Part shown: one piece after another, positions 1-15,605 of the stretch
Layout: each line of letters begins with the position of its first letter
Numbering within the stretch: position 1 is the stretch's first letter
Assembly: GCA_004297165.1 (NCBI GenBank)
Contig: SCUJ01000001.1
Coordinates: 62,001-126,000, forward strand
Length of the DNA: 64,000 bases
Direction: 5' to 3'
Source of the DNA: Gammaproteobacteria bacterium
GTDB lineage: Bacteria > Pseudomonadota > Gammaproteobacteria > Eutrophobiales > Eutrophobiaceae
Translations under genes and position numbers: made by a program
Notes under the pieces: generated by a model
Database searches by the model: none
Told to the model about the DNA's origin: nothing
Seen by the model: only the letters and a program-made list of their open reading frames with translations

Positions 1-2
1 CC

Positions 3-1028
3 GGTATGGGCGCATTGCCGGGGGCGGAGACCTGGCAACAGTTCAAGTATGGATTCGGGCCGACCGTGGACGGGCTGTTCGCGCAATCCAATTTCGGGGT
101 CGTCACCAAGATGGGGTTCTGGCTGTTCCCGGCGCCGGAGTCCTTTCTGGAGGCCGTGGTCACGGCGGCGCGGCACGATGACATCATCCCTCTGGTGGAT
201 ATCACCGCGAGACTGACGCACTCCGGGGTGATGAATTCCAATATCCTGCTGGGTTCGCCCATGCGCGATGCCGCGCTGAGGGATCCCGATCTTAGAGAAT
301 TATTTTTGCACACAGATCAGGCCGAGGTCCGCCGGAAGCTGGATGATTACGCCGGGAGTCACAAGCTGGCGTTCTGGACCAGCCGCCTGAAATTCTATGG
401 CCCGGAAAAGGTCGTGAAGGCCCAGTGGGAACACGCGCGGGAGAGATATTCCGGCATCCCCGGCGTCGGCTTCCAGGAAGGCGAACTGTTGCGCTTTCCG
501 CTCACCGAGGAACAAATCGCCGGGATGCGGGACCAGGTGGCGATCGGCGTGCCAAATCTCTCGATCTTCTCAGCCATTTCCCGCTCGACCTTCAATCCCA
601 CGCCCACCATGGGCCACATCGGATTTTCGCCAGTGATCCCCATGACGGGGGAGGCGGTGATCGAATCGCATCGCGTGATCGGGCAGGAGTTGGCGGACAT
701 GGACACAACCCCCGCGTTCATGACCATGCCGATTTCCTATCATTCGCGGACCTTCATCATATTGATTGCATTTTCAATCGTGGAAGATCCGGCAATCAAT
801 CGCAAGACCCGCGAGGTGTTCAGACGGCTCATCAAGGTCGCGGCGGAACATGGCTGGGGCGAGTACCGCACGCATACGGCATTCATGGACGATTGCGCGG
901 CGGTCTATTCATATAACGATCATTCGCTGCGCCGACTGCACGAGACCTTGAAGGACGCCATCGATCCGAACGGCATCCTCTCGGCCGGACGGTATGGCAT
1001 ATGGCCCAGGCATCTGAGGAAGAAATAA
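3..1028 (+). CDS. VAO/PCMH-type FAD-linked oxidase, 3' part (gene cut by window edge)
   Basis: C-terminal part of a flavoprotein of the vanillyl-alcohol oxidase / p-cresol methylhydroxylase family, which oxidises para-substituted phenols in the cytoplasm or periplasm. The reading frame is open to the left edge, so the N-terminal FAD-binding half lies outside the window. The visible part has the family block GFGPTVDGLFAQSNFG near its start. It has GWGEYRTHTAFMD about 60 residues from the end, where family members keep a Tyr-Arg pair in the phenol-binding pocket, and it ends with DPNGILSAGRYGIWP, a typical family terminus. It precedes two secreted tannase-like genes on the same strand, which fits phenolic-compound metabolism; exact substrate unknown. 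Confidence 0.85.
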   Translation, partial: GMGALPGAETWQQFKYGFGPTVDGLFAQSNFGVVTKMGFWLFPAPESFLEAVVTAARHDDIIPLVDITARLTHSGVMNSNILLGSPMRDAALRDPDLRELFLHTDQAEVRRKLDDYAGSHKLAFWTSRLKFYGPEKVVKAQWEHARERYSGIPGVGFQEGELLRFPLTEEQIAGMRDQVAIGVPNLSIFSAISRSTFNPTPTMGHIGFSPVIPMTGEAVIESHRVIGQELADMDTTPAFMTMPISYHSRTFIILIAFSIVEDPAINRKTREVFRRLIKVAAEHGWGEYRTHTAFMDDCAAVYSYNDHSLRRLHETLKDAIDPNGILSAGRYGIWPRHLRKK

Positions 1029-1100: not shown

Positions 1101-2672
1101 ATGTATAAGCGGCTATCCGTTTTTGTGTGGCTGTTGTCAGGTATCTTGTGGTCAGCGCCAGTAATCGTTGCGGCGCAACAGGGATGCGAGGGTCTGACCT
1201 CACTCAAGATCCCGAACGTCACCTTCACCCTGGCGACGGCAATTACCGCCCCGCCGGATTACGTGGCGCCAAATCCACGGGTACCCTTCTGGAACCCCGA
1301 ACCCGCCAAGGTCTCCGTGCCGTTCTGCCGCGTGGCCGGCTACGTGGAGCCCGCGCAGGAATCGCACATCGGGTTCGAGATCTGGCTCCCGTTGGTGAAG
1401 AACTGGAACGGGAAATACCTGGGGATAGGCACGCCCGGCATGGTCGGCTACATCTCCTACGGCGCGCTGGCCCGCAACGTGCAGAACGGCTACGCCACGG
1501 CCTCGACCGATACCGGCCATGTTGATACGGACACGCCGGGCGAGGCCCCGACGGCCGAATGGGCCGGCAACACGGAAAAGGTGATCGATTGGGGACACCG
1601 CGCCCAGCATCTGACCACCGTCATCGCCAAGGAGGTCGCCAATGCCTATTACGGCACGGCGATAAAATACGCCTACTGGAACAGTTGCCACGAAGGCGGC
1701 AATCAGGCCCTGACCGAGCTGCAACGCTATCCCGGGGACTTTGACGGCATCGTTGTGGGCGGACCGGCCTACTACATGACCCGCCTGCAGGCCGCCACCT
1801 TGAACGCCTCCCTGGCGCTGGTCGGCGACGGACCCGAATCACCGACCTTCCTGCCGACCGCCAAATATCCTGCCATCAACCGGGCCGCGCTGGATGCCTG
1901 CGATGACCTCGACGGCGTCCACGACGGCGTGATCGACGATCCCACCCGCTGCCGTTTCGATCCGGCGAGCATGCAATGCCCGCCCTACAAGGACGAAGCG
2001 TCCTGCCTGACCGCAAGCCAGGTGGAGGCGGTGAGAAAAATGTACGCCGGCGCCAAGTTTGAGGACGGCACGGAGATCTATCCCGGTTACGAACCCGGTA
2101 GCGAATTGCGCTGGGATGTCCTCGGCCGCGGACCGGGGCCGATCCCCGTCAGCACCGGCTTCTTTCAGACCATGGTCTATCCGGGACAGAACTGGGACTA
2201 TCACACCTTCGACGTGGATCGCGACACGCGCTTCGCCGAGAAGAAGCTCGGCGGCATGATCGATTCCATGGATCCGAACCTGAAGCCCTTCAAGGACCGG
2301 GGCGGGAAGACGATCATGTTCACGGCCTGGGAGGAATCGGCGATCCCGCCGCGCGGCATCATGAATTATTACCGGAGCGTGGTCGAGACAATGGGCGGCC
2401 TGGAGAAGACGCAGGACTTCGCCCGCCTGTTCATGGTCGCGGGCATGGGCATGTGTCCCGGCTTCCGGGACCCGGGCGGGTTCGACACCCAGAAGGCGAT
2501 CGAACAATGGGTCGAGAAAGGCGTGGCGCCGGACACGATCATGTCCATCATGAGGACCGGTACGGAGGTGCACCGGACACGTCCCGTGTGCGCTTATCCC
2601 GCGGCGGCCATCTACAACGGCAGCGGGGATCCGAACGAGGCCGCGAGTTATGAATGCCGCGTTCGCGAGTGA
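1101..2672 (+). CDS. Secreted tannase/feruloyl-esterase family protein, triad substituted (copy 1)
   Basis: A 523-residue exported protein of the tannase/feruloyl esterase family (alpha/beta hydrolase). The start at 1101 is chosen because a G-rich Shine-Dalgarno (about 1088-1095) precedes it and a signal peptide follows directly (MYKRL, hydrophobic stretch, then VAAQQ). An in-frame start at 1077 would add eight unsupported residues. Lined up with the intact paralogue at 8709-10268, the Gly-Cys-Ser-Thr-Gly-Gly nucleophile motif reads Ser-Cys-His-Glu-Gly-Gly (His197 replaces Ser). The catalytic Asp position is Glu412, and the catalytic His before the conserved Cys is Met451. The two cysteines that flank the triad in this family are kept. 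Ordinary serine-esterase chemistry is therefore unlikely; role unknown. Confidence 0.85.
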   Translation: MYKRLSVFVWLLSGILWSAPVIVAAQQGCEGLTSLKIPNVTFTLATAITAPPDYVAPNPRVPFWNPEPAKVSVPFCRVAGYVEPAQESHIGFEIWLPLVKNWNGKYLGIGTPGMVGYISYGALARNVQNGYATASTDTGHVDTDTPGEAPTAEWAGNTEKVIDWGHRAQHLTTVIAKEVANAYYGTAIKYAYWNSCHEGGNQALTELQRYPGDFDGIVVGGPAYYMTRLQAATLNASLALVGDGPESPTFLPTAKYPAINRAALDACDDLDGVHDGVIDDPTRCRFDPASMQCPPYKDEASCLTASQVEAVRKMYAGAKFEDGTEIYPGYEPGSELRWDVLGRGPGPIPVSTGFFQTMVYPGQNWDYHTFDVDRDTRFAEKKLGGMIDSMDPNLKPFKDRGGKTIMFTAWEESAIPPRGIMNYYRSVVETMGGLEKTQDFARLFMVAGMGMCPGFRDPGGFDTQKAIEQWVEKGVAPDTIMSIMRTGTEVHRTRPVCAYPAAAIYNGSGDPNEAASYECRVRE

Positions 2673-2704
2673 GACATACCTTATTTATTTGAGGAGGGGT
2701 ACAA

Positions 2705-4276
2705 ATGAAAAATAAGAAGATTTCTTTCGCGCCTTTCGTATTCATGGCCGGCCTGGCGCTGGCGCCGGTCTTGGCAATCGCGCAGCAGCCCTGCGAGGGC
2801 CTGATGGCGGTCAAGCTTCCCAATATCACGATCACCTCGGCCGCGGCCGGCGATGCGGGCTTCGAGTTGCCGCCGCAGGCGGGTTTTCTGAATGCGCCGC
2901 CGCGCAAGGTGACGGCGCCGTTTTGCCGGGTACAGGCGTTTTCGACGCCGAGCAGCGACTCACACATCGGCCTCGAGGTATGGCTGCCGGTCGCGCAAAA
3001 CTGGAACGGGAAATTCCTGGCCGCGGGCAATCCGGGATTCATCGGCTCGTTGTCTTCCAGCGGACTCGCGGGGATCATGGAACGCGGCTACGTCGCGGCG
3101 GGCACCGACACCGGCCATGTCGATGAGGCCTTCGAGTGGGCGATCGGTCATCCCGAGAAATGGGCGGACTGGGGTTATCGCGCCGTGCACGAGATGGCGG
3201 TCCTGACCAAGGAACTCGCGAACCAGTACTACGGCAAACCGATTCAGCACTCCTATTGGAACAGTTGCCACAACGGTGGCAATCAGGCGCTCAACGAAGC
3301 ACAGCGTTATCCCGGGGATTTCGACGGGATCGTCGCGGGCGATCCCGCCCTGCATATCTCGCACCTGCAACCAGGCTCGCTGTACATCAGTTGGGTCGCG
3401 CTGAAGGATGGGGTCGGCAGCCCGGCGTACATCCCCCCCGCGAAGGTCGCGATCCTGAACCAGGCCGCGCTCGCCGCCTGCGATGCCGACGACGGCCTGG
3501 CCGACGGACTCATCACGAATCCGATGCAATGCAAGTTCGATCCCGCCGTAACGCAATGCAAGGCCGCGGACGACGGCACATGTTTGACCGCGGCGCAGGT
3601 CGATACCGCGAAAAAGATCTACGCGGGAGCAAAGTTCAACGACGGCACGCCGATCTACGCCGGCTATGTGCCGGGCAGCGAGGTGACCTGGAATTTCATG
3701 ATCGAGAAGGAACCCTTCTCCGTGAACCTCAACTACTTCAAGGGCATGGTCTTCCAGGATCCGAACTGGGATTTCCGCACCTTCGATCCGGATCGCGACA
3801 CGCGGCTGGCGATCGAACGCACCGGCAAGTATGTGGACGCGAACAATCCCGATCTGCGGCCGTTCAAGCAGGCGGGCGGCAAACTCATCCTCATCGCCTC
3901 ATGGAACAGCACCGCGCTCGCGCCACTGCAAGTGGTCGAGTATTACCAGGGCATCGAGAAAATCATGGGCGGGCCGGACAAGACTCGGGATTTCGCGCGC
4001 CTCTTCGCCGTGCCCGGTTCGCGCGGCTGCCCCGGCTTCGTCCGCAACACCGAGGATTTCAAGGCGCTCGAAGCGATGATCGACTGGGTCGAAAACGGCA
4101 AGGCCCCCGAGAGCATTGTTTATTCGTATCGCGAGGCGACCGAGGGCGCCTCCGGCCTGGCGAGCGCGGGCAAGGTCTACCGCACGCGGCCGGTCTGCGC
4201 CTATCCGGAGGTCTCGAAATACAAGGGGAGCGGCGACATCAATGACGCGGCCAATTTCACGTGCGGGACTAAATAG
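2705..4276 (+). CDS. Secreted tannase/feruloyl-esterase family protein, triad substituted (copy 2)
   Basis: A 523-residue tandem paralogue of the preceding gene, starting 32 bp after its stop with its own strong Shine-Dalgarno (GAGGAGG, about 2691-2697). The signal peptide ends near AIAQQ. The nucleophile region reads Asn-Ser-Cys-His-Asn-Gly-Gly (His189 in place of Ser), the Asp position is Ser, and the position before the conserved C-terminal Cys442 is Gly441 instead of His. It shares the block WNSCHxGGNQAL with copy 1, which suggests a selected, non-classical site rather than random decay. Likely co-transcribed with copy 1. Family membership is clear; activity cannot be predicted. Confidence 0.85.
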   Translation: MKNKKISFAPFVFMAGLALAPVLAIAQQPCEGLMAVKLPNITITSAAAGDAGFELPPQAGFLNAPPRKVTAPFCRVQAFSTPSSDSHIGLEVWLPVAQNWNGKFLAAGNPGFIGSLSSSGLAGIMERGYVAAGTDTGHVDEAFEWAIGHPEKWADWGYRAVHEMAVLTKELANQYYGKPIQHSYWNSCHNGGNQALNEAQRYPGDFDGIVAGDPALHISHLQPGSLYISWVALKDGVGSPAYIPPAKVAILNQAALAACDADDGLADGLITNPMQCKFDPAVTQCKAADDGTCLTAAQVDTAKKIYAGAKFNDGTPIYAGYVPGSEVTWNFMIEKEPFSVNLNYFKGMVFQDPNWDFRTFDPDRDTRLAIERTGKYVDANNPDLRPFKQAGGKLILIASWNSTALAPLQVVEYYQGIEKIMGGPDKTRDFARLFAVPGSRGCPGFVRNTEDFKALEAMIDWVENGKAPESIVYSYREATEGASGLASAGKVYRTRPVCAYPEVSKYKGSGDINDAANFTCGTK

Positions 4277-4365: not shown

Positions 4366-5871
4366 CTAGATCTCGAATAACCGCCTGACCTCAGGCTTCG
4401 TAACCTTCCCCATCGCGTTGCGTGGGAGTTTCGGCACGACTTGCAGCAGCTTCGGCAGTTTATAGCGCGACATCCGCTCGCCCGCCCATTCGCGCAGGGA
4501 CTCCAGTTCAAGCGAGTGACCCGCCTTCGGCACCACCGCTACGGCGACTGCCTCGCCCCAGGTGTCGTCCGGGACGCCGACCACGGCGCATTCCGCGATG
4601 CCGGGATGCCGCAGCAGCGCATCCTCGATCTCCAGCGCCGACAGCTTGTAACCTCCGGACTTGATGATGTCCACGGAGAGCCGTCCCATGATCCGGAAGT
4701 AGCCGTGTTCGATGACCGCCATGTCCCCGGTCCGGAACCAGCCATCGACGAAGGACTTGGCGGTGGCATTCGGATCGTTCCAGTACTCCTTGAACACCGC
4801 CGGTCCCCGTACCTGGATCTCCCCCGGCGAGTCCTCGGCCTGAATGACCTCGCCCTGTTCGGTCACCAGTCGGATCTCGACCTCCGGCAACGGCATGCCC
4901 ACCGCGCCCGGACGCCGCTCCCCTTGCAGGGGATTGGACAGCGCCATGCCGATCTCGGTCATGCCGTAGCGCTCCAGCAGGGTCTGGCCGGTGAGACCTT
5001 CCCAGGTCCTGTGGATCTCGACCGGCAGGGCGGCGGATCCCGAGACCATCAGCCGCATGCCGGCGAAACCCTCGCACACCGGCTTGCGGGCGTCCGGATC
5101 CAGGGCATTGATCCCCTCAATCAGTTTCACATAGATCGTCGGCACCGCCATGAAGAGGGTGAATTCGCGCGCGGCGACCCCCGGGAGTATGGACTGCATG
5201 TCGAAGGCGGGGAAGGTCCGGACCCGCGCCCCGCACCACAAGGCGCAACTCTGGATGTTGACGATCCCGTGGATGTGATGCATGGGCAGAAAGAGGGGAA
5301 TGCGATCATCCTGCCGCCACCCCCAGGCGTTGACCAGCGAGCGGATCTGGGCGGCGATCCCGCCGTGGGTGCTGACCACGCCCTTGGGTTTGCTGGTGGT
5401 GCCGCTGGTAAAGAGGATCATGGCGCGGCGATCCGCGGTGAGCCGCGGCAGCGCCGGCGTTGACGGGGAATTCATTTCCGCGAGATCGAGAACCCGAATG
5501 CCGAGTTGAGCGCAGAGCGTTTGCACTTTGTCCCTATAGGGCGCGGCGGTCACGAGGTTGCTGACCTGCGCCGTGGTCAACACATGTTCGATCTCGGGCA
5601 GGGTGGCGCCAAGGTTCAGCGGCACGGCGATCCCGCCGGCCCGCCATATCCCCCATTGCGCAGAGGCGTAATCGATCCCCGCCGGAAACAGCATCGCCAC
5701 GCGTTGTTCATCGAGATCGGCGCGGTTATCGAGCAGGCCCGCCGCGATCCGCGCCGAGCGATCCAGCAATTCCCGATAGCTGATCTGCCGATCGCCTTCG
5801 ACGATCGCGATCCGATCGCCATGCTCCTGGGCGCGAGAGATCAGATCGGTGGTGTGTTCAGTCGTCTGCAT
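4366..5871 (-). CDS. matB: Malonyl-CoA synthetase (acyl-CoA synthetase family)
   Basis: A 501-residue adenylate-forming enzyme that would activate malonate to malonyl-CoA using ATP and CoA in the cytoplasm. It has the P-loop-like AMP-binding motif FTSGTTSKPKG, the block ERYGMTEIGMALSNP typical of malonyl-CoA synthetases, the hinge region around WFRTGDMAVIEHGYFRIMGR, and the C-terminal catalytic lysine in LPRNAMGKVTK. It is the last gene of a three-gene operon after the malonate transporter genes madL and madM, which supports malonate over other short dicarboxylates. No malonyl-CoA decarboxylase gene is next to it, so the product may feed fatty acid or polyketide synthesis or be decarboxylated by an enzyme encoded elsewhere. 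Confidence 0.85.
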   Translation of the reverse strand: MQTTEHTTDLISRAQEHGDRIAIVEGDRQISYRELLDRSARIAAGLLDNRADLDEQRVAMLFPAGIDYASAQWGIWRAGGIAVPLNLGATLPEIEHVLTTAQVSNLVTAAPYRDKVQTLCAQLGIRVLDLAEMNSPSTPALPRLTADRRAMILFTSGTTSKPKGVVSTHGGIAAQIRSLVNAWGWRQDDRIPLFLPMHHIHGIVNIQSCALWCGARVRTFPAFDMQSILPGVAAREFTLFMAVPTIYVKLIEGINALDPDARKPVCEGFAGMRLMVSGSAALPVEIHRTWEGLTGQTLLERYGMTEIGMALSNPLQGERRPGAVGMPLPEVEIRLVTEQGEVIQAEDSPGEIQVRGPAVFKEYWNDPNATAKSFVDGWFRTGDMAVIEHGYFRIMGRLSVDIIKSGGYKLSALEIEDALLRHPGIAECAVVGVPDDTWGEAVAVAVVPKAGHSLELESLREWAGERMSRYKLPKLLQVVPKLPRNAMGKVTKPEVRRLFEI

Positions 5872-5896
5872 GATTGTCTATCCGTTCGTCTGTTCT

Positions 5897-6673
5897 TCAT
5901 CCGAGCGCGGCGGCCAGGGCCTTCACCGTCAGGAACAACACGGAAGGGCCCAGCAGACAACCGAGCCCGGTGTAGAAGGTCGCGGTCATGACCCCGTAGG
6001 GCACGAGCTTGGGATCGGTCGCGGCGAGACCCGCGGCCACGCCGCTGTTGGTGCCCATGAGGCCCCCATAGACCATGGCGGATTGCGGATTGTCGAGGCC
6101 GATATAGCGGGCGAGCGCGGGCGTGCCGAGCATGACCAGGATCGCCTTGACGAGGCCGGCGGCGACGCTGAGCGCGAGGAGATCGGAACTCGCGCCAAGG
6201 GCCGTGCCCGTGACGGGCCCGACGATATAAGTGACCGCCCCTGCCCCGATGGTGGTGATCGCCACGGGATCGGTGTAACCGAAGGCGACCGCCACAATGG
6301 CGCCCAGCACGAAGGAGACGACCACCCCAATCAGGATGGAGATCGCGCCGACAAAACCCGCGCTTTTAAGGTCTTCGAGGCTCGCTCCATAGGCCGTGGC
6401 GATGATGGCGAAGTCCCGGAACATGTTGCCGCCCATCACGCCGATGCCGGCAAATACGGCGATATCGGCGAGCCCGGCATTTCCGCCGGTATAGGCCCCG
6501 CTCACGCCGGCCAGGATCAGGCCGAAGGCGATCGCGATCGCCGAGCCGTGCAACCGACCCTTGGTCAGGGTCCGGGAGAGCCAGTAGGAAAACCAGGTGA
6601 TGGCGCCGATCAAAACGAAGGCGACGATCAGGCCGTTGGCCTTGGTCATGTTGAGGATAAGGTCGCCGATCAT
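5897..6673 (-). CDS. madM: Malonate transporter, MadM subunit
   Basis: A 258-residue polytopic inner-membrane protein with glycine-rich helices (for example VFAGIGVMGGNMFRDFAI and AVTYIVGPVTGTALGASSD) and the size and pattern of MadM, the large subunit of the two-component malonate:cation symporter. Its start codon overlaps the stop of madL by 4 bp (ATGA), so the two subunits are translationally coupled. The matB gene follows after 25 bp. Together they form an uptake-plus-activation unit for malonate. Confidence 0.85.
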   Translation of the reverse strand: MIGDLILNMTKANGLIVAFVLIGAITWFSYWLSRTLTKGRLHGSAIAIAFGLILAGVSGAYTGGNAGLADIAVFAGIGVMGGNMFRDFAIIATAYGASLEDLKSAGFVGAISILIGVVVSFVLGAIVAVAFGYTDPVAITTIGAGAVTYIVGPVTGTALGASSDLLALSVAAGLVKAILVMLGTPALARYIGLDNPQSAMVYGGLMGTNSGVAAGLAATDPKLVPYGVMTATFYTGLGCLLGPSVLFLTVKALAAALG

Positions 6674-7056
6674 GACTGTTCCCCTTGCGGAGGTATCGCC
6701 GGGCGCCGGCAGAAGCGGCTCAATACCGGGACCAGGGCGAAACCGCCGGCCACCGCCAACGTGCCCGCAAGCAGGGCTACAGGCCCGCCCTTCAGCGCGG
6801 CATAGACATCCGATTTTGCCGCCATCGCGATCACGATCGGGATGTACATGGCGCTCCAGAAGGTGATGCCATCCGCAGTCATTGGGCCGAGTTTGAACTT
6901 CGATTCCGTGCGGCTGGAAAGAAACAGCAACATCAGCATGGCGATGCCGACGCCGCCGACATTGGCCTCGACGTCGAGGATCACTCCCAGGAGATCCCCC
7001 AGGAATACCCCCGTCAGCATGGAAAGGGAAAGAATGGCGACGCCATAGATGATCAT
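6670..7056 (-). CDS. madL: Malonate transporter, MadL subunit
   Basis: A 128-residue membrane protein with about four hydrophobic segments; the length matches MadL, the small subunit of the malonate transporter. Recognisable family blocks include GVFLGDLLGV near the N-terminus and LGPMTADGITFWSAMYIPI in the middle. It is the first gene of the madL-madM-matB operon. A Shine-Dalgarno-like GGAGGAAC lies just upstream of the start. The 236 bp between this start and the divergent carrier gene at 7293 should hold the operon promoter; no regulator gene is adjacent. Confidence 0.85.
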   Translation of the reverse strand: MIIYGVAILSLSMLTGVFLGDLLGVILDVEANVGGVGIAMLMLLFLSSRTESKFKLGPMTADGITFWSAMYIPIVIAMAAKSDVYAALKGGPVALLAGTLAVAGGFALVPVLSRFCRRPAIPPQGEQS

Positions 7057-7292: not shown

Positions 7293-8702
7293 ATGAATAA
7301 CGACGCCACGGTTCTGGAAATGGTTCACACGCCGCCGACCCGGCTGGAAAAGGTCCTCGGGATCTTCGCCAGCGTGCAGGCACGGGAAGGCGTCACGAGT
7401 CTCCTGTTGCTCTGCAACATCTTCCTCATCCTCATGGCGTACTATTTCATCAAGCCGGTCCGCGAGGGCTGGCTCTCGATCTCGGTTGTCAGTGACTGGT
7501 CCAAGCTGGAGATCAAATCGTATTCGGCCTTCGGGCAGAGCATGTTGTTGCTGATTATCCTGCCGGTGTACGCCTGGCTGGCCGCCAGCGTGTCGCGGCG
7601 CAGACTCATCACGGTGACCGCGGGGATATCGGCGATCCTGTTGGTGGCGTTCTGGCTCATGCAACCGGGGTTGTTGACCGAACAGATCCGTTATGTCGGG
7701 ATTGCCTTCTACATCTTCGTGGGGATATTCAGCGTGACCCTGGTGGCCCAGTTCTGGTCGTTTGCCTCGGACCTGTACGGCCAGGAAAAGGGCCGCCGCC
7801 TCTTCCCGCTGGTCGCGATCGGCGCCTCCGCGGGCGGCGTGGTCGGATCCTGGGTCGGGGAGCGGGCCGTCGAGTTGCATTGGTTGAACGCCTTCGATCT
7901 GATCCTGTTGGCCCTAATCCCGCTGGGGCTCGCCGTCACCCTGGCGCGGCACATCGATCGCAGGGGCACGCTGGGCCACCCCAACGGCGAGACGGAGATC
8001 CGCCGGCTACAACCGGCGGCCCCGGATGGCCACGGCGCCTTCAGGACCATTTACGAAAGCCAGTATCTGACGATCACGGCGGGGATGATGCTGCTCTTCA
8101 ACTGGGTGGTATCGAGCGGCGACAACATCCTCTTCGGCCTGGTGCAGCAGGCGCTCGAAGGCGATTTGAACGGGACCGGCGACCCGCAGGCGCTGGCCGC
8201 GGCCATGAATGTGGCCACCACCGCCTTCTACAGCGAACTGTATTTCTGGGTGAATCTGTCCGGCCTGCTCTTGCAGGCCTTTGTCGTCTCCCGACTCGTG
8301 CGGCTCGGCGGATTCGGTCTGCTGCTCATCGCCACGCCGCTGGTGTCGCTGGCCGCCTATCTCTCGATGGTGATCGCCCCGGTGATCGGGATCATCAAGG
8401 TGATGAAGGTCGCGGAGAATTCCAGCAATTATTCGATAAACAACACCGCCCGCCACATGCTCTGGCTGCCGACGACCAAGGCCATGATGTATCAGGCGAA
8501 GGCCACCATCGATACCCTGTTCGTCCGCATCGGCGATGGCCTGGCGGCGCTCACGGTCCTGCTGGGGACGCGCTTCTGGTCTTACACGCTGAGCGATTTC
8601 CTCCTGGTGAATATCGTCCTCAGCACGCTCTGGATAATCCTCGCCATCTGCCTGATCCGGGAATATAACCAGCGCAGCCGGATGCTGGCCCAGCCCGCCT
8701 GA
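7293..8702 (+). CDS. ATP/ADP-translocase-like (NTT/TLC family) MFS carrier
   Basis: A 469-residue integral membrane protein with about 12 hydrophobic segments. The block YYFIKPVREGWLS near the N-terminus and ENSSNYSINNTARHMLWLP in the last third resemble the bacterial Npt1/Npt2 nucleotide transporter family. The classic members exchange ATP for ADP or import NTPs in intracellular bacteria. Homologues in free-living bacteria are common and of unknown substrate, so ATP/ADP exchange should not be assumed here. It is divergent from the malonate operon and convergent with the third tannase gene, with 6 bp between stops, so it appears to be monocistronic. No strong Shine-Dalgarno is visible. Confidence 0.7.
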   Translation: MNNDATVLEMVHTPPTRLEKVLGIFASVQAREGVTSLLLLCNIFLILMAYYFIKPVREGWLSISVVSDWSKLEIKSYSAFGQSMLLLIILPVYAWLAASVSRRRLITVTAGISAILLVAFWLMQPGLLTEQIRYVGIAFYIFVGIFSVTLVAQFWSFASDLYGQEKGRRLFPLVAIGASAGGVVGSWVGERAVELHWLNAFDLILLALIPLGLAVTLARHIDRRGTLGHPNGETEIRRLQPAAPDGHGAFRTIYESQYLTITAGMMLLFNWVVSSGDNILFGLVQQALEGDLNGTGDPQALAAAMNVATTAFYSELYFWVNLSGLLLQAFVVSRLVRLGGFGLLLIATPLVSLAAYLSMVIAPVIGIIKVMKVAENSSNYSINNTARHMLWLPTTKAMMYQAKATIDTLFVRIGDGLAALTVLLGTRFWSYTLSDFLLVNIVLSTLWIILAICLIREYNQRSRMLAQPA

Positions 8703-8708
8703 TTTCAT

Positions 8709-10268
8709 TCACCGCCGGCAGACGAAGTTTTCCTCCCGCTCGGAGTCGCCTGCGCCCCGATAATGGGCATGCGCGGGGAAAGGGCATAACGGACGGCTGC
8801 GGCCGGGAAACGCCGTGCCGGTCGCAGTCACCCGATCGGGCGGTGCGCCATCCTCCACCCAGCGGATGATGGCGGTCAGGAGGTCGAAGCGATCCAGGGT
8901 TGCCGATCCCCCGCCGCAGTGTCCCATCCCGGGGACCAGAAACAGGTGGCTCCACTGCGCGGTCTGTTCCTCGCCGCCGTTATCCCGCGCTAGACGCAGA
9001 TAGTAATCGACAGTATCCAGGGCCGAGAACCAGGGATCGCTGACGCCGTGATAGAAGATCAGTTTGCCGCCGCGCCCGGCGAAACTGGAGAGATTGGTCC
9101 AGAGATGGCTGTCGCCCAGACCGTTCAGCGACCCCGCGGCGACCGCGGCCTCCCGATCCACATCCTGCTCCATCGCCATGACTGGCGGACCCACCGGGCT
9201 TTGCCCCGCATGGAGGAGTCCGGGAGCGCCGCGTCCGCTGTCGCCGATGCCGATGTCATAAAGATAACCGGGGTAGACCTCGAAGCCGCGGGAGTCCTTC
9301 GGCCCGCCGAAGGCATCGTGCAGGGCCTCGACCTGCGCCGCGCTAAGACAACTTGCGTTCTTCTCCGCCTTGCATACCAGACTGGCCGGATCGAAATCGC
9401 AGCCGAGGGTATCCGCGATCAGTCCGTCGCGCATCCCGTCCCTGGCGTCGCAACTCTTGCGGAGCGAGTCCAAAATCAATTGCTTGTCCGCGTCTGAAAA
9501 TGCCTGGGAGACGATCGGTTGCCCCTGGTCGTCTTGCGGGGCGACCCGGTTGAAGGCGGTCACCAGATGCCGCATCCCGAGGTTGGAATAATCCGTGCGC
9601 ATGGCCGGGGCCCCGGCGACAATCCCGTCAAAATAGCCAGGGTAACGCTGCGACATGATCATCGCCTCGCGCCCGCCGGTGGAGCAGCCCATGAAATAAG
9701 ACCGCACCGGCTTGTTGCCATAATAGGTTGCCACGATCTCCTTCGCCGCCACGGTCACCTTGCCGACGGCCTGGTAAAAGAAGTTCAAGGCCGCCTCCTG
9801 ATCCGCAAAAAAGGCCGCATCGAACACGGTCTGGCTCTGGTGGCCGCTGTCGGTCGTCACCACCGCGAAGCCGCGGGAAAGCGCCGGGCTGTCGCCGGAG
9901 GCGACCTGTCCCAGGGGTCTCGCCACATTGCCGTTCAAACCGCCGCCGCCCTGAAACAGGAAACGGCCGTTCCAGTCATCCGGCATGGCGATGGCGAAAC
10001 CGATGGCGTAACTCGCGCCGCCAACCCCGGTACGTTTGTCGAGCATGCCCTCGACCAGGCAATGCGCCGGGAGGGGTTGCAGGATCGGCGGGGCGAACGG
10101 CGCAGCCGGCGGGATCCCCTCGGGGACTGTTTTTGCACTGGTAATTTCGAGGATCATACCCGGCAAGGTCAGGGATTGAAGCGCGACACAATCCGCAGCC
10201 GTTGCTGCACTGGCCACGAACGCCACGGACAACAGGAATAGTGTAATGACACCGGCACTAATACGCAT
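8709..10268 (-). CDS. Secreted tannase/feruloyl-esterase family protein, intact triad (copy 3)
   Basis: A 519-residue exported esterase of the tannase/feruloyl esterase family, expected to hydrolyse aromatic acid esters in the periplasm or outside the cell. The start at 10268 is favoured by a GGGGGAA Shine-Dalgarno just upstream and an immediate signal peptide (MRISAGVI... cut near ASAATA). The full CS-D-HC arrangement is present: nucleophile Ser196 in GCSTGG with the preceding Cys, an Asp in GVSDPW, and His-Cys in GMGHCGG. It is therefore the catalytically competent paralogue against which the two tandem genes at 1101-4276 can be compared. An in-frame ATG at 10301 is possible but less likely. 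Confidence 0.88.
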   Translation of the reverse strand: MRISAGVITLFLLSVAFVASAATAADCVALQSLTLPGMILEITSAKTVPEGIPPAAPFAPPILQPLPAHCLVEGMLDKRTGVGGASYAIGFAIAMPDDWNGRFLFQGGGGLNGNVARPLGQVASGDSPALSRGFAVVTTDSGHQSQTVFDAAFFADQEAALNFFYQAVGKVTVAAKEIVATYYGNKPVRSYFMGCSTGGREAMIMSQRYPGYFDGIVAGAPAMRTDYSNLGMRHLVTAFNRVAPQDDQGQPIVSQAFSDADKQLILDSLRKSCDARDGMRDGLIADTLGCDFDPASLVCKAEKNASCLSAAQVEALHDAFGGPKDSRGFEVYPGYLYDIGIGDSGRGAPGLLHAGQSPVGPPVMAMEQDVDREAAVAAGSLNGLGDSHLWTNLSSFAGRGGKLIFYHGVSDPWFSALDTVDYYLRLARDNGGEEQTAQWSHLFLVPGMGHCGGGSATLDRFDLLTAIIRWVEDGAPPDRVTATGTAFPGRSRPLCPFPAHAHYRGAGDSEREENFVCRR

Positions 10269-10421: not shown

Positions 10422-12305
10422 ATGACCGGCGCACCTGCCAAATTCGGCTCCATGCTGGGTCTCGCCCCTGGCGAGGTCCCCGCGTTTTCATCCCATTACG
10501 CATCCGCGGATACCAGAGAGTATCCTGATCGCGAATCCTACCGCAGTTACCATGAAGGCATCTTCATGGGCTACAAGTGGCAATGCGTGGAGTTCGCGCG
10601 GCGCTGGTTGTACCGGAACAAGGGTTACATCTTCGACGAAGTCGGCATGGCCTACGATATTTTCCAGCTTCGCTGCGTCCGGGTGATCCGCGACAATACC
10701 CTGTTGCCGGTGCATGCCTTCAGGAACGGCAGTATCCGCCGGCCCGAACCCGGCAGCTTGTTGATCTGGGACGAGGGCGGCGAATTCGAGCATACCGGCC
10801 ATGTGGCGGTAATCACCGAGGTGTTTCCTGACCGGGTGCGGATCGTCGAACAGAACGTTGATCATCGGCCCTGGCCGCGCGGCCGGAACTACTCACGGGA
10901 ACTTGGCGCCGTGATCGACGCCGCCGGCGGTTACCATATCACCTGCACCTATGACCGGGGGGCCATCCTCGGTTGGGTCATCCAGACCAGCGATCCTTCC
11001 CATGCGGAGCCCAGGATCGAACCGGCACCGGAACTTTTCAATCTGCGCCTCGCGGAGATACCCTCGCAGCGTCCACAAGGCGCCTGGCTCGACGCCGCGC
11101 GGCCGGACGAGGCGGCCTTCATCGCCGTGGGGCGTCCCTGGCTGACCAATGCCCCGGATCTGCAACGCAGCTATTTCTGTCTCTCGGAGACCGCGTTCAC
11201 GGAGATCAAGCACGCCGCCAACGAGCTGCATGCCATGTTCATGCACGCTACGCACAAGGTGTTGAAGGACGATAGACTTCTCGCCCGCTTCAAACTGCCC
11301 CGCTCCATCTGGCCGAAGCTCCGCCAGTCCTGGAACAACCGGCGCAACCAGATGATCACGGGCCGGTTCGATTTTTCCGTCTCCAGTCGCGGCATCAAGG
11401 TCTATGAATACAATGCCGATTCCGCCTCCTGTTACCTGGAGACCGCGCGCCTGCAAGGCACTTGGTTCGACTCCTTCGGTTTCGAGGACGGGGATTGTCC
11501 GGGTAACCGGTTATATCCGGATCTGGCGCGGGCCTGGCGCAAGAGCGGCGTGGATACGGTCCTGCATATCCTCCAGGACAATGAGCCCGAGGAGACCTAT
11601 CATGCCTTGTTCATGAAGGCCGCCGTCGAGGAGGCCGGGATCCGCTGCAAGCTCGTGGTGGGCATGGAGGGCCTCGACTGGGACGCTGCGGGCTTCGTCG
11701 TGGACCGGGACGGGGAACGCATCCTCAGGGTGTGGAAGACCTGGGCCTGGGAAACGGCCCTGGATCAGTTGCGCGCGGAGTTCGATGAGGAGGAAGCCCT
11801 GTCCGCCATCAGCGATTCGCATCCCCGGACCAAACGGCCCCGCCTCGCCGATATCCTGCTGCGCAACGAGGTGGTGGTCTACGAACCCTTGTGGACGTTA
11901 ATCCCGAGCAACAAGGCGATCCTGCCTGTGCTTTGCGAGATGTTCCCCGGGCATCCCAACCTGCTGGAGGCGCGCTACGAACTGGAACCGGAGATGGCGC
12001 GTTACGGATACGTCGCCAAACCCATCGCCGGCCGCTGCGGCGCCAACATCAGCATGGTGGACCGTCATCAGGAAGTGATGCAGGAAACGGGAGGGACTTT
12101 CGGCGGGCAGGATCACATCTACCAGCAACTCTTTCCCCTGCCCAGGATCAACCGGCTCAATCTTCAGATCGGCGCCTTCACCGTAGACGGGAAATTCTCC
12201 GCCGCCTGCGTCCGCGCCGATACCTCGCCGGTGATCACCTCCGACAGCGATCTCCTGCCGCTGCGGGTGTTCGAGGACGAGGATTTATTGCCGATACAAA
12301 ATTAA
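10422..12305 (+). CDS. gss: Bifunctional glutathionylspermidine synthetase/amidase
   Basis: A 627-residue, two-domain cytoplasmic enzyme of the same size and order as Escherichia coli Gss. Residues 1 to about 200 are the CHAP-type amidase, with catalytic Cys55 in YKWQCVEFARR, His127 in TGHVAVI and a Glu in VEQNV. Residues about 220-627 are the ATP-grasp synthetase that joins glutathione to spermidine, with blocks such as KVYEYNADSASCYLE and YVAKPIAGRCGANIS. It would make and hydrolyse glutathionylspermidine, a thiol conjugate linked to redox protection. It ends tail-to-tail with the dehydrogenase gene at 12302-13423, overlapping by 4 bp. The Shine-Dalgarno is weak. Confidence 0.92.
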   Translation: MTGAPAKFGSMLGLAPGEVPAFSSHYASADTREYPDRESYRSYHEGIFMGYKWQCVEFARRWLYRNKGYIFDEVGMAYDIFQLRCVRVIRDNTLLPVHAFRNGSIRRPEPGSLLIWDEGGEFEHTGHVAVITEVFPDRVRIVEQNVDHRPWPRGRNYSRELGAVIDAAGGYHITCTYDRGAILGWVIQTSDPSHAEPRIEPAPELFNLRLAEIPSQRPQGAWLDAARPDEAAFIAVGRPWLTNAPDLQRSYFCLSETAFTEIKHAANELHAMFMHATHKVLKDDRLLARFKLPRSIWPKLRQSWNNRRNQMITGRFDFSVSSRGIKVYEYNADSASCYLETARLQGTWFDSFGFEDGDCPGNRLYPDLARAWRKSGVDTVLHILQDNEPEETYHALFMKAAVEEAGIRCKLVVGMEGLDWDAAGFVVDRDGERILRVWKTWAWETALDQLRAEFDEEEALSAISDSHPRTKRPRLADILLRNEVVVYEPLWTLIPSNKAILPVLCEMFPGHPNLLEARYELEPEMARYGYVAKPIAGRCGANISMVDRHQEVMQETGGTFGGQDHIYQQLFPLPRINRLNLQIGAFTVDGKFSAACVRADTSPVITSDSDLLPLRVFEDEDLLPIQN

Positions 12306-13423
12306 TAAAAATGCGGAGATATCCGGCTTAACAATTTCATGGCAGTCGCGTGATGCGAGGTGAGCTTGCCGCCATAGATGGTGAAGAGCCTGGGATCGGC
12401 GGGATCATCCGGCTGCAGGATGGTTTCACGGGTGCGCGTGAAAGGCGATTCCGGCGCGGCCGGGAGTACGCGCAGACCGGCGAATGAACTCAGGACATCG
12501 CCGGGAGCCAGCCCGCGCCGGAAATAATGATTGAAGATCCCGAGCAGGTATTCGATCTCCTCCACGGTCGGGGCGACGGCCTCGGGCGCGCCGCGATACG
12601 GCCGCTCCGTGGTCCCCATGAGGATATTCCCCTGCCAGGGTTGCGCGAACACGGCCCGGCGGTCCGAAGGCGATTCCAGATAATAGATCCCTTGCTGCAA
12701 GGTCCCGGGGATCACGATATGCGAGCCCGCCACCAATTCCAGTTCCCGCCGGGCGGGCACAGGCAGGACCCGATCCAGGACCTGATTCACCCACGGGCCT
12801 GAGGCATTGATGAGCATCCGTGCCCGGCATTCCAGCGTGGAACCGCCCGCGCGGTAACGGAGCAGATAACCGTCCATTTCCCGAATGGCCTCAAGGAATT
12901 CCGCCTGAAGCTGTAAAACCGCGCCGGCCCCGGTCGCCTTGCGCAGCACGGCGCGGGTCAACGCGGCGTCATCCGTGCCGGCATCGGTATAGCGGAAGAC
13001 CGCCTGAAGCCCATCAAGTCGGATCCCGTCCAGTGCCCGCCATTGTTCCCTGGGAACGCGCTGAAAACCCTTGCCCCCCAGGATCTGGTAGAGCGACAGA
13101 CCGGAGGCGATCTGCCAAGGTCGCCGTTTGCTCGCGTCATAGATGGGGATATAAAACGCCACCTCGCGCACCAGCTCCGGGAATTCGGCGAGCAGGCGCG
13201 CCCGTTCCTTGAGGCATTCCCGCACCAGATTGAACTGGGCGGTCTCCAGGTAGCGCAGTCCGCCGTGGATCAACTTGCTGGAGCGGCTCGATGTGCCCTG
13301 GGCCGCCGCGGAATACTGTTCGAGGACCAGACAGGAAAAACCGCGCTCGGTGGCGACCCTCGCGCAGGCGGCGCCGTGGATGCCGGCGCCGATGATGACG
13401 ATGTCAAATCGTTGTATCTCCAT
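12302..13423 (-). CDS. FAD-dependent glycerol-3-phosphate dehydrogenase, short form
   Basis: A 373-residue flavoprotein of the GlpD/DAO family, expected to oxidise sn-glycerol-3-phosphate to dihydroxyacetone phosphate and pass electrons to quinone. It has the Rossmann dinucleotide motif IIGAGIHGAACA, then the GlpD signature SSRSSKLIHGGLRYLE. GlpD proteins of about 500 residues have an extra C-terminal helical domain that is absent here; the protein stops at the end of the FAD/substrate domain. It is the downstream gene of the kinase-phosphodiesterase fusion, 25 bp after its stop, so the two form an operon that would channel glycerophosphodiesters into glycolysis. Confidence 0.8.
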   Translation of the reverse strand: MEIQRFDIVIIGAGIHGAACARVATERGFSCLVLEQYSAAAQGTSSRSSKLIHGGLRYLETAQFNLVRECLKERARLLAEFPELVREVAFYIPIYDASKRRPWQIASGLSLYQILGGKGFQRVPREQWRALDGIRLDGLQAVFRYTDAGTDDAALTRAVLRKATGAGAVLQLQAEFLEAIREMDGYLLRYRAGGSTLECRARMLINASGPWVNQVLDRVLPVPARRELELVAGSHIVIPGTLQQGIYYLESPSDRRAVFAQPWQGNILMGTTERPYRGAPEAVAPTVEEIEYLLGIFNHYFRRGLAPGDVLSSFAGLRVLPAAPESPFTRTRETILQPDDPADPRLFTIYGGKLTSHHATAMKLLSRISPHFY

Positions 13424-13448: not shown

Positions 13449-15605
13449 CTAATGACATTCTTTTAACTCACTCACCGCCGCGGTCGAGATCCAGTCGACC
13501 CCGAGCCGATAATACTGCCCGGCCAATTCCCGGTCATTGATCTCGTAGACCATCCAGTCCCAGGGACCCGGCCAGGGCGGCTCGCCGGTCAGCTTCTCGT
13601 GGTTCACGATCAGATAATCCGGCAGCAATCGTTCGGCTGCCGCACGGTGCGCGGCATCGTATTCGCGCAGGACCCAACCGATGGCGAGGGCCGAATTGCG
13701 GCGCGCGTACTCCAGGCACTCGTGCTCGAAGGAGATGAGAATGCAATGCTTACCGTTATCGCGCAAGTCCGCCAGCAGCCGGCGCATGACCTTTTCAATT
13801 CCGAAATGATCGAGGGTATGCCGCTTGACCTCGGCAAAGAACAGGACGCGGGGGTGCGCCGCCATCACCTCGATCACCTGACCCAGATCGGGTATACGTT
13901 CCTTCGCGAGGTCTTCCGCCGCTGACAGAATGGCGAATTGCTTCAATTGCTCCCGGCTGTAATCGAAGATGCGGCCTTGCTCGCCCGTCATGCGGGCGAG
14001 GGTCTCATCGTGAAAGATCATCGGTTCTGCATCCCGGCTGAACTGGATATCGAACTCCACCGCGTCCGCGCCGGAGTCAATCGCCGCCGTTATTGAAGTG
14101 AGGGTATTCTCAGCGTGACGGCCGCGATAGCCGCGGTGCGCGACGATGCGCGGAATTTTATTCAGTCGGGTGGTGGTGTCCGATTCCCGGCGCCAGTCCG
14201 CCTTTGCGCCAAGCGCCGTGAGTAACACATGGCGGTAATGACGATAGCGCCGCTTGAGGGCGGGATTTGTACGGGGCGTGAAGAGTTCAGGCTGTTCCTG
14301 TGTCCAGGGCTGATCTGAACCGAGCGCCAGCCAGGCGACGCCACGCGCCGTCGCCTCGTGGTCCGTGGTTCGCGCAACGGGTATCCCCGCGAGATCGGCG
14401 AGCCTCTGGCAGAGTCCATCGAGCCGGGACAGGCCGCCGCTGATCCGGATCTTTTGAATCGAATCCCGCGCCATCTCGGCGAGGTTGTCCAGCAGCATGA
14501 ACAGGATGCTCTCCATGATGGCGATTATTCGTTTGGCGCGATCCGCATTTTCCGGGACAAAGCACATGGGCGCCTGATCGATCCACCAGGGCGAGCCGAG
14601 ACCGCCGATTGTGTTGATGCAGATCGGCGGATCGACAACATCTGCAAGCCATTGCGTCATGAGTTGCCGGAACTCTTCTTCCGTTTCCTGTTCCCGCATG
14701 GCGTCCACCGCCGATCCTGCGCCGTTGACTGTACCCTCAAGCAGATAATCCACATGATTATCCCGGCTGACGGCGATCCCCCCGAGGAGGCGCTCGTGCC
14801 GCGGCGGGTTGACGCCGGCCTCGCGCAGGACGAAGGCCCCGCTGCCGATGTTGATAAGCGCAGTGTCCGCCGCCGGGATACCCTCGGCATGAATGGCCGC
14901 GTTCTGGTCGCCGCACACACAGCACAGTTCGATGTCATGACCGATCAGCGAACCGTATTCCGCGAGGGTCGTCCGGCACTCCGGCAGGATCGACCGTGGG
15001 ATCTCGAAGAGCGCCAGCAACTCGGGGCTCCAGTCCAGCCGGCGGAGATCGAAGAGGAGACTGCGCGCGGCGTTGCTGTGATCGACCACATGAGGCTTAC
15101 CGCATAATAAATTGGCGCAGAGAAAGGATGCCAGAGGACCGACGCAGAGGCGGCCGGATTGAAACACCGCTTGCACCGCGCGGTCGTTTTCGAGCAGCCA
15201 CTTGATCTTGCCCGCGAGATAATGCGGCGAGAGCGGCAGACCGGTGATGGCATGGATTGCGGCGGCGCGATCCGCGTAGGGTTGCAGCAGATTCGCGGCG
15301 CGTCGATCCTGCCAGCTTATGGCAGGGGCAAGCGGTTCTCCCGTCTCGCGATCCCAGGCCACCAAGGTGGAGCGTTGCGTGGCAAGTCCGGCACTCTTCA
15401 CTTGGACGCTGATTTTCTCCAGTACTGTGTCGATCACGCCGCGCACGGATTGCAGGATCTCCACTGCGTTCTGTTCCACCTGCACCGCGTCAAGCCGGCG
15501 CAGGGCGACAGGTTGCATGGCCACGGCCAGGATCCTCCCGGCAGTGTCGAACACGACGGCACGGCTCGCGTGGGTCCCCTGATCGATGGCGAGAATGGCG
15601 GACAT
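13449..15605 (-). CDS. Fusion protein: FGGY-family (glycerol-kinase-like) kinase + glycerophosphodiester phosphodiesterase
   Basis: A 718-residue two-domain protein. Residues 1 to about 465 are an FGGY kinase close to GlpK: phosphate-binding DQGTHASRA at 8-16 and the catalytic Asp233 in CGDQNAA. Residues about 484-718 are a GDPD TIM barrel with all expected residues: His490-Arg491, Glu499, Glu517/Asp519 and His532-Asp533. GDPD would release glycerol-3-phosphate from glycerophosphodiesters. In the kinase, two glycerol-contacting positions of GlpK differ by eye: the Glu of the QRET motif is Ser79 and the pocket Tyr is His128, so the phosphorylated substrate may not be glycerol. The in-frame join is continuous and no stop or frameshift separates the domains. 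It is followed by the short GlpD-type gene. Confidence 0.85.
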   Translation of the reverse strand: MSAILAIDQGTHASRAVVFDTAGRILAVAMQPVALRRLDAVQVEQNAVEILQSVRGVIDTVLEKISVQVKSAGLATQRSTLVAWDRETGEPLAPAISWQDRRAANLLQPYADRAAAIHAITGLPLSPHYLAGKIKWLLENDRAVQAVFQSGRLCVGPLASFLCANLLCGKPHVVDHSNAARSLLFDLRRLDWSPELLALFEIPRSILPECRTTLAEYGSLIGHDIELCCVCGDQNAAIHAEGIPAADTALINIGSGAFVLREAGVNPPRHERLLGGIAVSRDNHVDYLLEGTVNGAGSAVDAMREQETEEEFRQLMTQWLADVVDPPICINTIGGLGSPWWIDQAPMCFVPENADRAKRIIAIMESILFMLLDNLAEMARDSIQKIRISGGLSRLDGLCQRLADLAGIPVARTTDHEATARGVAWLALGSDQPWTQEQPELFTPRTNPALKRRYRHYRHVLLTALGAKADWRRESDTTTRLNKIPRIVAHRGYRGRHAENTLTSITAAIDSGADAVEFDIQFSRDAEPMIFHDETLARMTGEQGRIFDYSREQLKQFAILSAAEDLAKERIPDLGQVIEVMAAHPRVLFFAEVKRHTLDHFGIEKVMRRLLADLRDNGKHCILISFEHECLEYARRNSALAIGWVLREYDAAHRAAAERLLPDYLIVNHEKLTGEPPWPGPWDWMVYEINDRELAGQYYRLGVDWISTAAVSELKECH

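Follow-up and report, generated by a model that had tools for sequence, protein, structure and literature searches.

The window, by which we mean the whole 64,000-nucleotide stretch of DNA that was analysed, opens with three co-directional genes (Table 1). The first encodes a flavoprotein that matched p-cresol methylhydroxylase in the phmmer search (9h40, E 1.2e-94) and also vanillyl-alcohol oxidases; its full ORF, completed from contig C11, has 535 aa, and the gene ends approximately 72 bp upstream of copy 1. Copy 2 follows copy 1 after a gap of 32 bp on the same strand. A simple consensus scan of the plus strand between the flavoprotein gene, copy 1 and copy 2 turned up nothing that resembles a promoter or a terminator, so the three genes could possibly form one operon.

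Table 1. Features of the locus, with positions counted from the first letter of the window
Feature	Position	Strand	Evidence and remarks
VAO/p-cresol methylhydroxylase-type FAD protein, C-terminal part	1-1028	+	gene start outside the window; phmmer; FAD-oxidase_C
Copy 1, putative secreted Tannase-fold protein, His-Glu-Met class	1101-2672	+	ORF, 523 aa
Copy 1 nucleophile elbow YWNSCHEGGNQA	1674-1709	+	sequence; His197 = 1689-1691; aligned to GCSTGG of feruloyl esterases
Copy 2, putative secreted Tannase-fold protein, His-Ser-Gly class	2705-4276	+	ORF, 523 aa
Copy 2 nucleophile elbow YWNSCHNGGNQA	3254-3289	+	sequence; His189 = 3269-3271; aligned to GCSTGG of feruloyl esterases
Intact Ser-Asp-His tannase-family paralogue	8709-10268	-	PF07519 362 bits; triad alignment; tree

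Both copies have, by eye, a Sec-like signal peptide at the N-terminus. They matched almost the whole Pfam Tannase model (PF07519) with 340.0 bits for copy 1 and 340.5 bits for copy 2, against a cut-off of 29.8, and neither matched an NCBIfam model. The AlphaFold models had a mean pLDDT of 91.1 and 92.0, respectively. The best PDB match of both models was AoFaeB (TM 0.90 over the full length, 27-30% identity), and the TM scores were 0.90-0.91 with FaeC and about 0.8 with MHETase. Copies 1 and 2 are thus members of the Tannase/feruloyl esterase family by sequence and by fold.

The triad positions were set by phmmer alignment to Aspergillus oryzae FaeB (6g21, 3wmt) and Fusarium FaeC (6fat). AoFaeB and the Fusarium oxysporum enzyme share with the copies the fold, the large lid and the cysteines that flank the triad, whereas their catalytic Ser, Asp and His align with H197, E412 and M451 in copy 1 and with H189, S402 and G441 in copy 2. 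The corresponding motifs are SCHEGG, AWEES and GMGMCPG in copy 1, SCHNGG, SWNST and GSRGCPG in copy 2, and GCSTGG, GVSDPW and GMGHCGG in the paralogue at the end of Table 1. The initial annotation had proposed from a comparison by eye that the triad was replaced in both copies while the flanking cysteines were kept, and the alignment bears out both points: the disulfide cysteines at the triad positions are retained in copy 1 and copy 2. Judged by this alignment, the copies lack the CS-D-HC motif, the defining catalytic feature of tannase-family serine esterases. The paralogue had served as the intact comparison; its Ser-Asp-His triad is indeed complete, but it is not the closest Ser-Asp-His relative of the copies, with which it shares 30-32% identity, against approximately 49% for the three proteins L046, L047 and L053.

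The His clade and its history

We searched 84,980 species genomes with copy 1, copy 2 and one same-family homologue, which gave 31 loci. The question had been raised whether a clade with the WNSCHxGGNQA block exists, and it does, as a separate branch of the tree with 26 full-length members, all from Gammaproteobacteria and Acidobacteriota. The CHxGG block pattern was found in 9 of 396 Acidobacteriota genomes and in two of 144 relatives of the window's genome (that genome itself and one other); among 398 sampled Pseudomonadota, only the window's own genome had it. In a tblastn search against plasmids, all relatives found were below 60% identity. The tannase family is represented by seven genes in the window's own genome; one of them, a third clade member on contig C12, is also of the His-Glu-Met type. 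Its relatives suggest that this genome belongs to an uncultured gammaproteobacterium. A copy 1 ortholog with 68% identity is present in a genome of the same family, and the same protein occurs in L012, a Gammaproteobacteria MAG.

The clade members were aligned with ordinary family members, including two samples that were drawn on the family model alone and are hence unbiased to the motif. All three triad positions were readable in 89 proteins, of which 63 were Ser-Asp-His (SDH), 16 His-Glu-Met (HEM), nine His-Ser-Gly (HSG) and one His-Gly-Gly (HGG); no mixed set occurred among these 89. The catalytic Ser-Asp-His of the CS-D-HC motif was absent in all 26 clade members, which have His, Glu/Ser/Gly and Met/Gly instead. 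Relatives in other genera and in a different phylum show no variation at these three positions, so the triad replacements are not due to chance. The pair in the window consists of one HEM-type and one HSG-type gene, and an HEM-type member was also present in six of the eight sampled genomes that carry an HSG- or HGG-type member.

Some sequence variants were seen within and near the clade. One HEM subclade (L076, L079, L080, L084, L085, L089 and L092) has the elbow CHNGGRQG, with Arg as in ordinary tannases, and Trp two residues past the Glu (N-E-T-W). L001, from the window's own genome (C13:873087-874460), and L048 have the elbow YWNSCSNGGRQG and an intact Ser-Asp-His triad; they resemble the His clade by eye but are not its sister in the tree.

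Trees were built without the triad columns and their neighbours, and a second tree was built also without the oxyanion loop. All 26 His proteins lay on one side of a branch (support 100/99), the SDH group L046, L047 and L053 was their sister, with approximately 49% identity to the copies, and the His-Ser/Gly-Gly proteins formed one nested group (support 100/99). The trees needed two changes of triad label, compared with a mean of 19-23 for shuffled labels. This comparison points to one ancestral switch from Ser-Asp-His to His-Glu-Met and one later, nested change from His-Glu-Met to His-Ser/Gly-Gly, not to parallel events. The earlier description of a parallel substitution in the two copies is therefore given up.

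We also considered a local duplication followed by parallel decay, and ruled it out. Apart from copy 2, the HSG clade in which it sits consists of Acidobacteriota proteins, and copy 1 lies elsewhere in the tree. The two copies share 50% identity with each other, whereas their nearest relatives in other genomes share 68% with copy 1 and 74% with copy 2, so they are not local duplicates.

Pocket residues and selection

The pocket positions of the clade were compared with those of the 63 SDH proteins and the sister group, and the numbering was checked against MHETase. Six positions, the triad included, change on one branch. The residue before the oxyanion glycine changes from Gly to Pro (Pro112 in copy 1, P110 in copy 2; MHETase position 131) in 26/26 clade members against 0/63 SDH proteins, and the elbow Ser changes to His (His197) in the same proportions. 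Directly after strand beta-6 (position 221), Ala is replaced by Asp in 25 of the 26, compared with 5/63 SDH proteins having Asp there; in copy 2 it is Asp213. The Gly of the HG motif before the old acid is Ser or Ala in 24/26 members and Gly in all 63 SDH proteins. The ancestral changes at the last two positions were Asp to Glu for the old acid after beta-7 and His to Met for the old base after beta-8; in the derived subclade that includes copy 2, Glu then gave way to Ser or Gly and Met to Gly. The sister group retains Gly, Ser, Ala, Gly, Asp and His at the six sites.

Much of the surrounding structure is kept. The cysteines of the active-site disulfide and the aspartates of the Ca2+ site are conserved throughout, and the family cysteines are retained, as is the lid, whose residues Gln230 and Tyr235 are common to the His clade and its SDH sister group. 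Studies have shown that the oxyanion residues of MHETase are Gly132 and Glu226 (PMC7568301). A loss of the oxyanion glycine in the clade was considered and rejected, as the Pro occupies position 131 and the equivalent of Gly132 is kept. At position 131 MHETase has Ser, 91% of the family has Gly and the clade has Pro. Likewise, the Cys224-Cys529 disulfide, Gly132 and the Ca2+ aspartate motif of Ideonella sakaiensis MHETase (6qg9, 6qz3), a member of the same family, have equivalents in the clade, whereas its Ser225, Asp492 and His528 are all replaced. Compared with AoFaeB and FaeC, the clade differs further in the Pro next to the oxyanion Gly and in the Asp after beta-6.

The clade has kept one oxyanion glycine together with the fold, the lid and the disulfides, and it might still hydrolyse esters through a relocated triad or a water activated by the His. 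The alignment of 89 proteins was searched for a different conserved Ser/Asp/His triad in both copies, and it was absent; apart from the elbow His, no Ser or His is both invariant and specific to the clade. Ser195, two residues before the elbow His, is frequent in the clade, but it is not invariant, being Gly or Asn in 3/16 HEM proteins. The Pro in place of the glycine beside the oxyanion Gly also speaks against ester hydrolysis, and in MHETase the S225A change is inactivating (PMC7568301). We consider a surviving esterase very unlikely. The Ser-acyl chemistry of the feruloyl esterases is not available at its customary site in the clade, and another set of polar residues is strongly constrained.

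Pairwise dN/dS between related clade members was 0.08-0.21, values that are rough because dS is high (0.8-2.3), and the intact paralogue gave 0.15 against its ortholog. The clade is under purifying selection. Copy 1 is the sole full-length member without Asp after beta-6 (G221), and it also has N235 for Tyr235; its 68% ortholog has both residues. These deviations would fit relaxed paralogues on the way to pseudogenes, but both frames are open at full length, the dN/dS values are similar to that of the intact paralogue, and the replacement residues are conserved between phyla. We give decay an almost negligible probability, in agreement with the first reading of the sequence, which had argued against random decay.

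Possible functions of the clade

By homology with the triad, we infer that the elbow His, Glu and Met share one place in the fold. The sequences show that the parts of the catalytic machinery were exchanged together on one ancestral branch. We speculate that the elbow His pairs with the new Asp after beta-6, the two together acting as general acid/base. Copy 1 has Gly221 instead of this Asp, and its Glu412, which occupies the place of the former acid, may take over the role. A small, probably phenolic, ligand would be held beneath the lid, and a reaction without a Ser-acyl intermediate could be that of a lyase, isomerase, hydratase or water-activating enzyme. We tentatively favour this account, a repurposed secreted pocket in which a His-carboxylate pair serves as acid/base on a small phenolic ligand, and give it slightly less than an even chance. 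The catalytic acid of the alpha/beta-hydrolase fold is known to have a second possible location after beta-6 (PMC7034887; PMC11878206), and in the group B alpha/beta hydrolases the acid lies at the same site as the new Asp of the clade (position IV, then Pro). In group B, however, this Asp serves the His of the beta-8 loop and the elbow nucleophile, while in the clade the His itself is at the elbow.

The ligand pocket may predate the switch, because Gln230 and Tyr235 are common to the clade and its SDH sister; this suggests that the ligand class was retained and the chemistry changed. Gly221 and Asn235 of copy 1 count against the acid/base account, and so does the HSG class, which keeps His and Asp only, a thin set for catalysis. 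With fewer polar groups, HSG proteins appear from their residues to be weaker candidates for catalysis than HEM proteins; in copy 2 and the rest of its class, some of the machinery may have been lost, and these proteins could act as binders or partners. That the pocket of the clade acts on small phenolics outside the cell by chemistry different from the hydrolysis of esters is, in our opinion, possible, at somewhat lower confidence than the acid/base pair itself.

The clade may instead have no catalytic role, the residues holding a ligand without turnover in a secreted binder or sensor of phenolics, or in a protein that regulates the active esterases of the same genome or works with them. None of the three catalytic residues survives, and in the HSG class two of the positions hold Ser or Gly and Gly. 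Most of the His-clade genomes checked also carry ordinary SDH paralogues. Non-enzymatic alpha/beta-hydrolase proteins without the serine are known, for example ABHD15 (PMC6601125), DUF687 and CGI-58 (PMC11878206). ABHD15, CGI-58/ABHD5 and the Asp/Glu-His dyad carboxy lyases have naturally lost the nucleophilic Ser and kept the fold, as here (PMC6601125, PMC11878206); some serine-less proteins of this kind bind ligands or use a dyad, and their subfamilies are unrelated to the clade. On the other side, His-Glu-Met together with the Asp and the Pro is held over two phyla, and a mere loss of catalysis would not call for particular polar residues to arise at every one of the catalytic positions. 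We regard a binder as a rather less probable outcome than an acid/base pocket, at around one chance in three.

Another explanation concerns the HEM class, in which the elbow His, Glu412, Met451 and the beta-6 Asp might bind a metal, for instance copper, and so make the protein a redox or hydrolytic metalloprotein. Triad homology would bring His, Glu and Met together at one site of the fold with the Asp adjacent, and redox enzymes lie near several members. Besides the VAO/PCMH flavoprotein described above, the neighbours of other members include a PQQ dehydrogenase with cytochrome c, FAD- and molybdenum-type oxidoreductases, an SDR and a pectin-type glycosidase. Redox and plant-polymer genes thus appear repeatedly, but none of them is a constant partner: a conserved operon partner was sought and rejected, as the neighbours of 22 His-clade loci have almost nothing in common, and a VAO/PCMH-type flavoprotein is not beside the copy 1 ortholog in L012. 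Because the genomic context differs between members, no pathway supports a particular reaction, which also counts against the acid/base account. The metal site is further weakened by the HSG class, which retains two of the four candidate ligands, by copy 1, which is without the Asp, and by the alignment, which contains no additional clade-specific His, Cys or Met. We consider it unlikely. As a separate observation, short-chain dehydrogenase genes (L107:6-836 and L111:6446-7276) adjoin two related HSG/HGG members in two genomes.

A recent survey of active sites in the superfamily covers triads with Ser, Asp or Cys as well as dyads without the serine; an elbow His with Met at the base position is not among the arrangements that it describes (PMC11878206). 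In the open-access literature, we found no report of substituted triads in the tannase family or of His at the nucleophile elbow. Annotation by homology would call the clade tannase or feruloyl esterase, and this is probably the wrong function; we believe that the clade probably carries out other chemistry or binding than the cutting of tannin and ferulate esters. Few catalytic machines are as well studied as the serine triad of the alpha/beta-hydrolase fold. To our knowledge, clades that exchanged nucleophile, acid and base together and then fixed the new set over two phyla are rare. Since the sister group keeps Ser-Asp-His at approximately 49% identity and has the lid residues in common, the route from Ser-Asp-His to the His clade is open to direct study by residue swaps.

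Other genes in the window

On the minus strand, 4366-6676 holds an AMP-forming ligase gene adjoining a malonate/sodium symporter MadM gene, possibly a pair for malonate uptake and activation. The plus-strand gene at 7293-8702 encodes a predicted membrane protein of 469 aa, transporter-like by eye and with no Pfam match at E 1e-5. A CHAP amidase domain is fused to a glutathionylspermidine-synthase ATP-grasp domain at 10422-12305 (plus strand). At 13449-15605 on the minus strand, a glycerol-kinase-type FGGY kinase and a glycerophosphodiester phosphodiesterase are fused in one ORF (FGGY_N, FGGY_C, GDPD), and a gene resembling FAD-dependent glycerol-3-phosphate dehydrogenase (12302-13423) adjoins this fusion.
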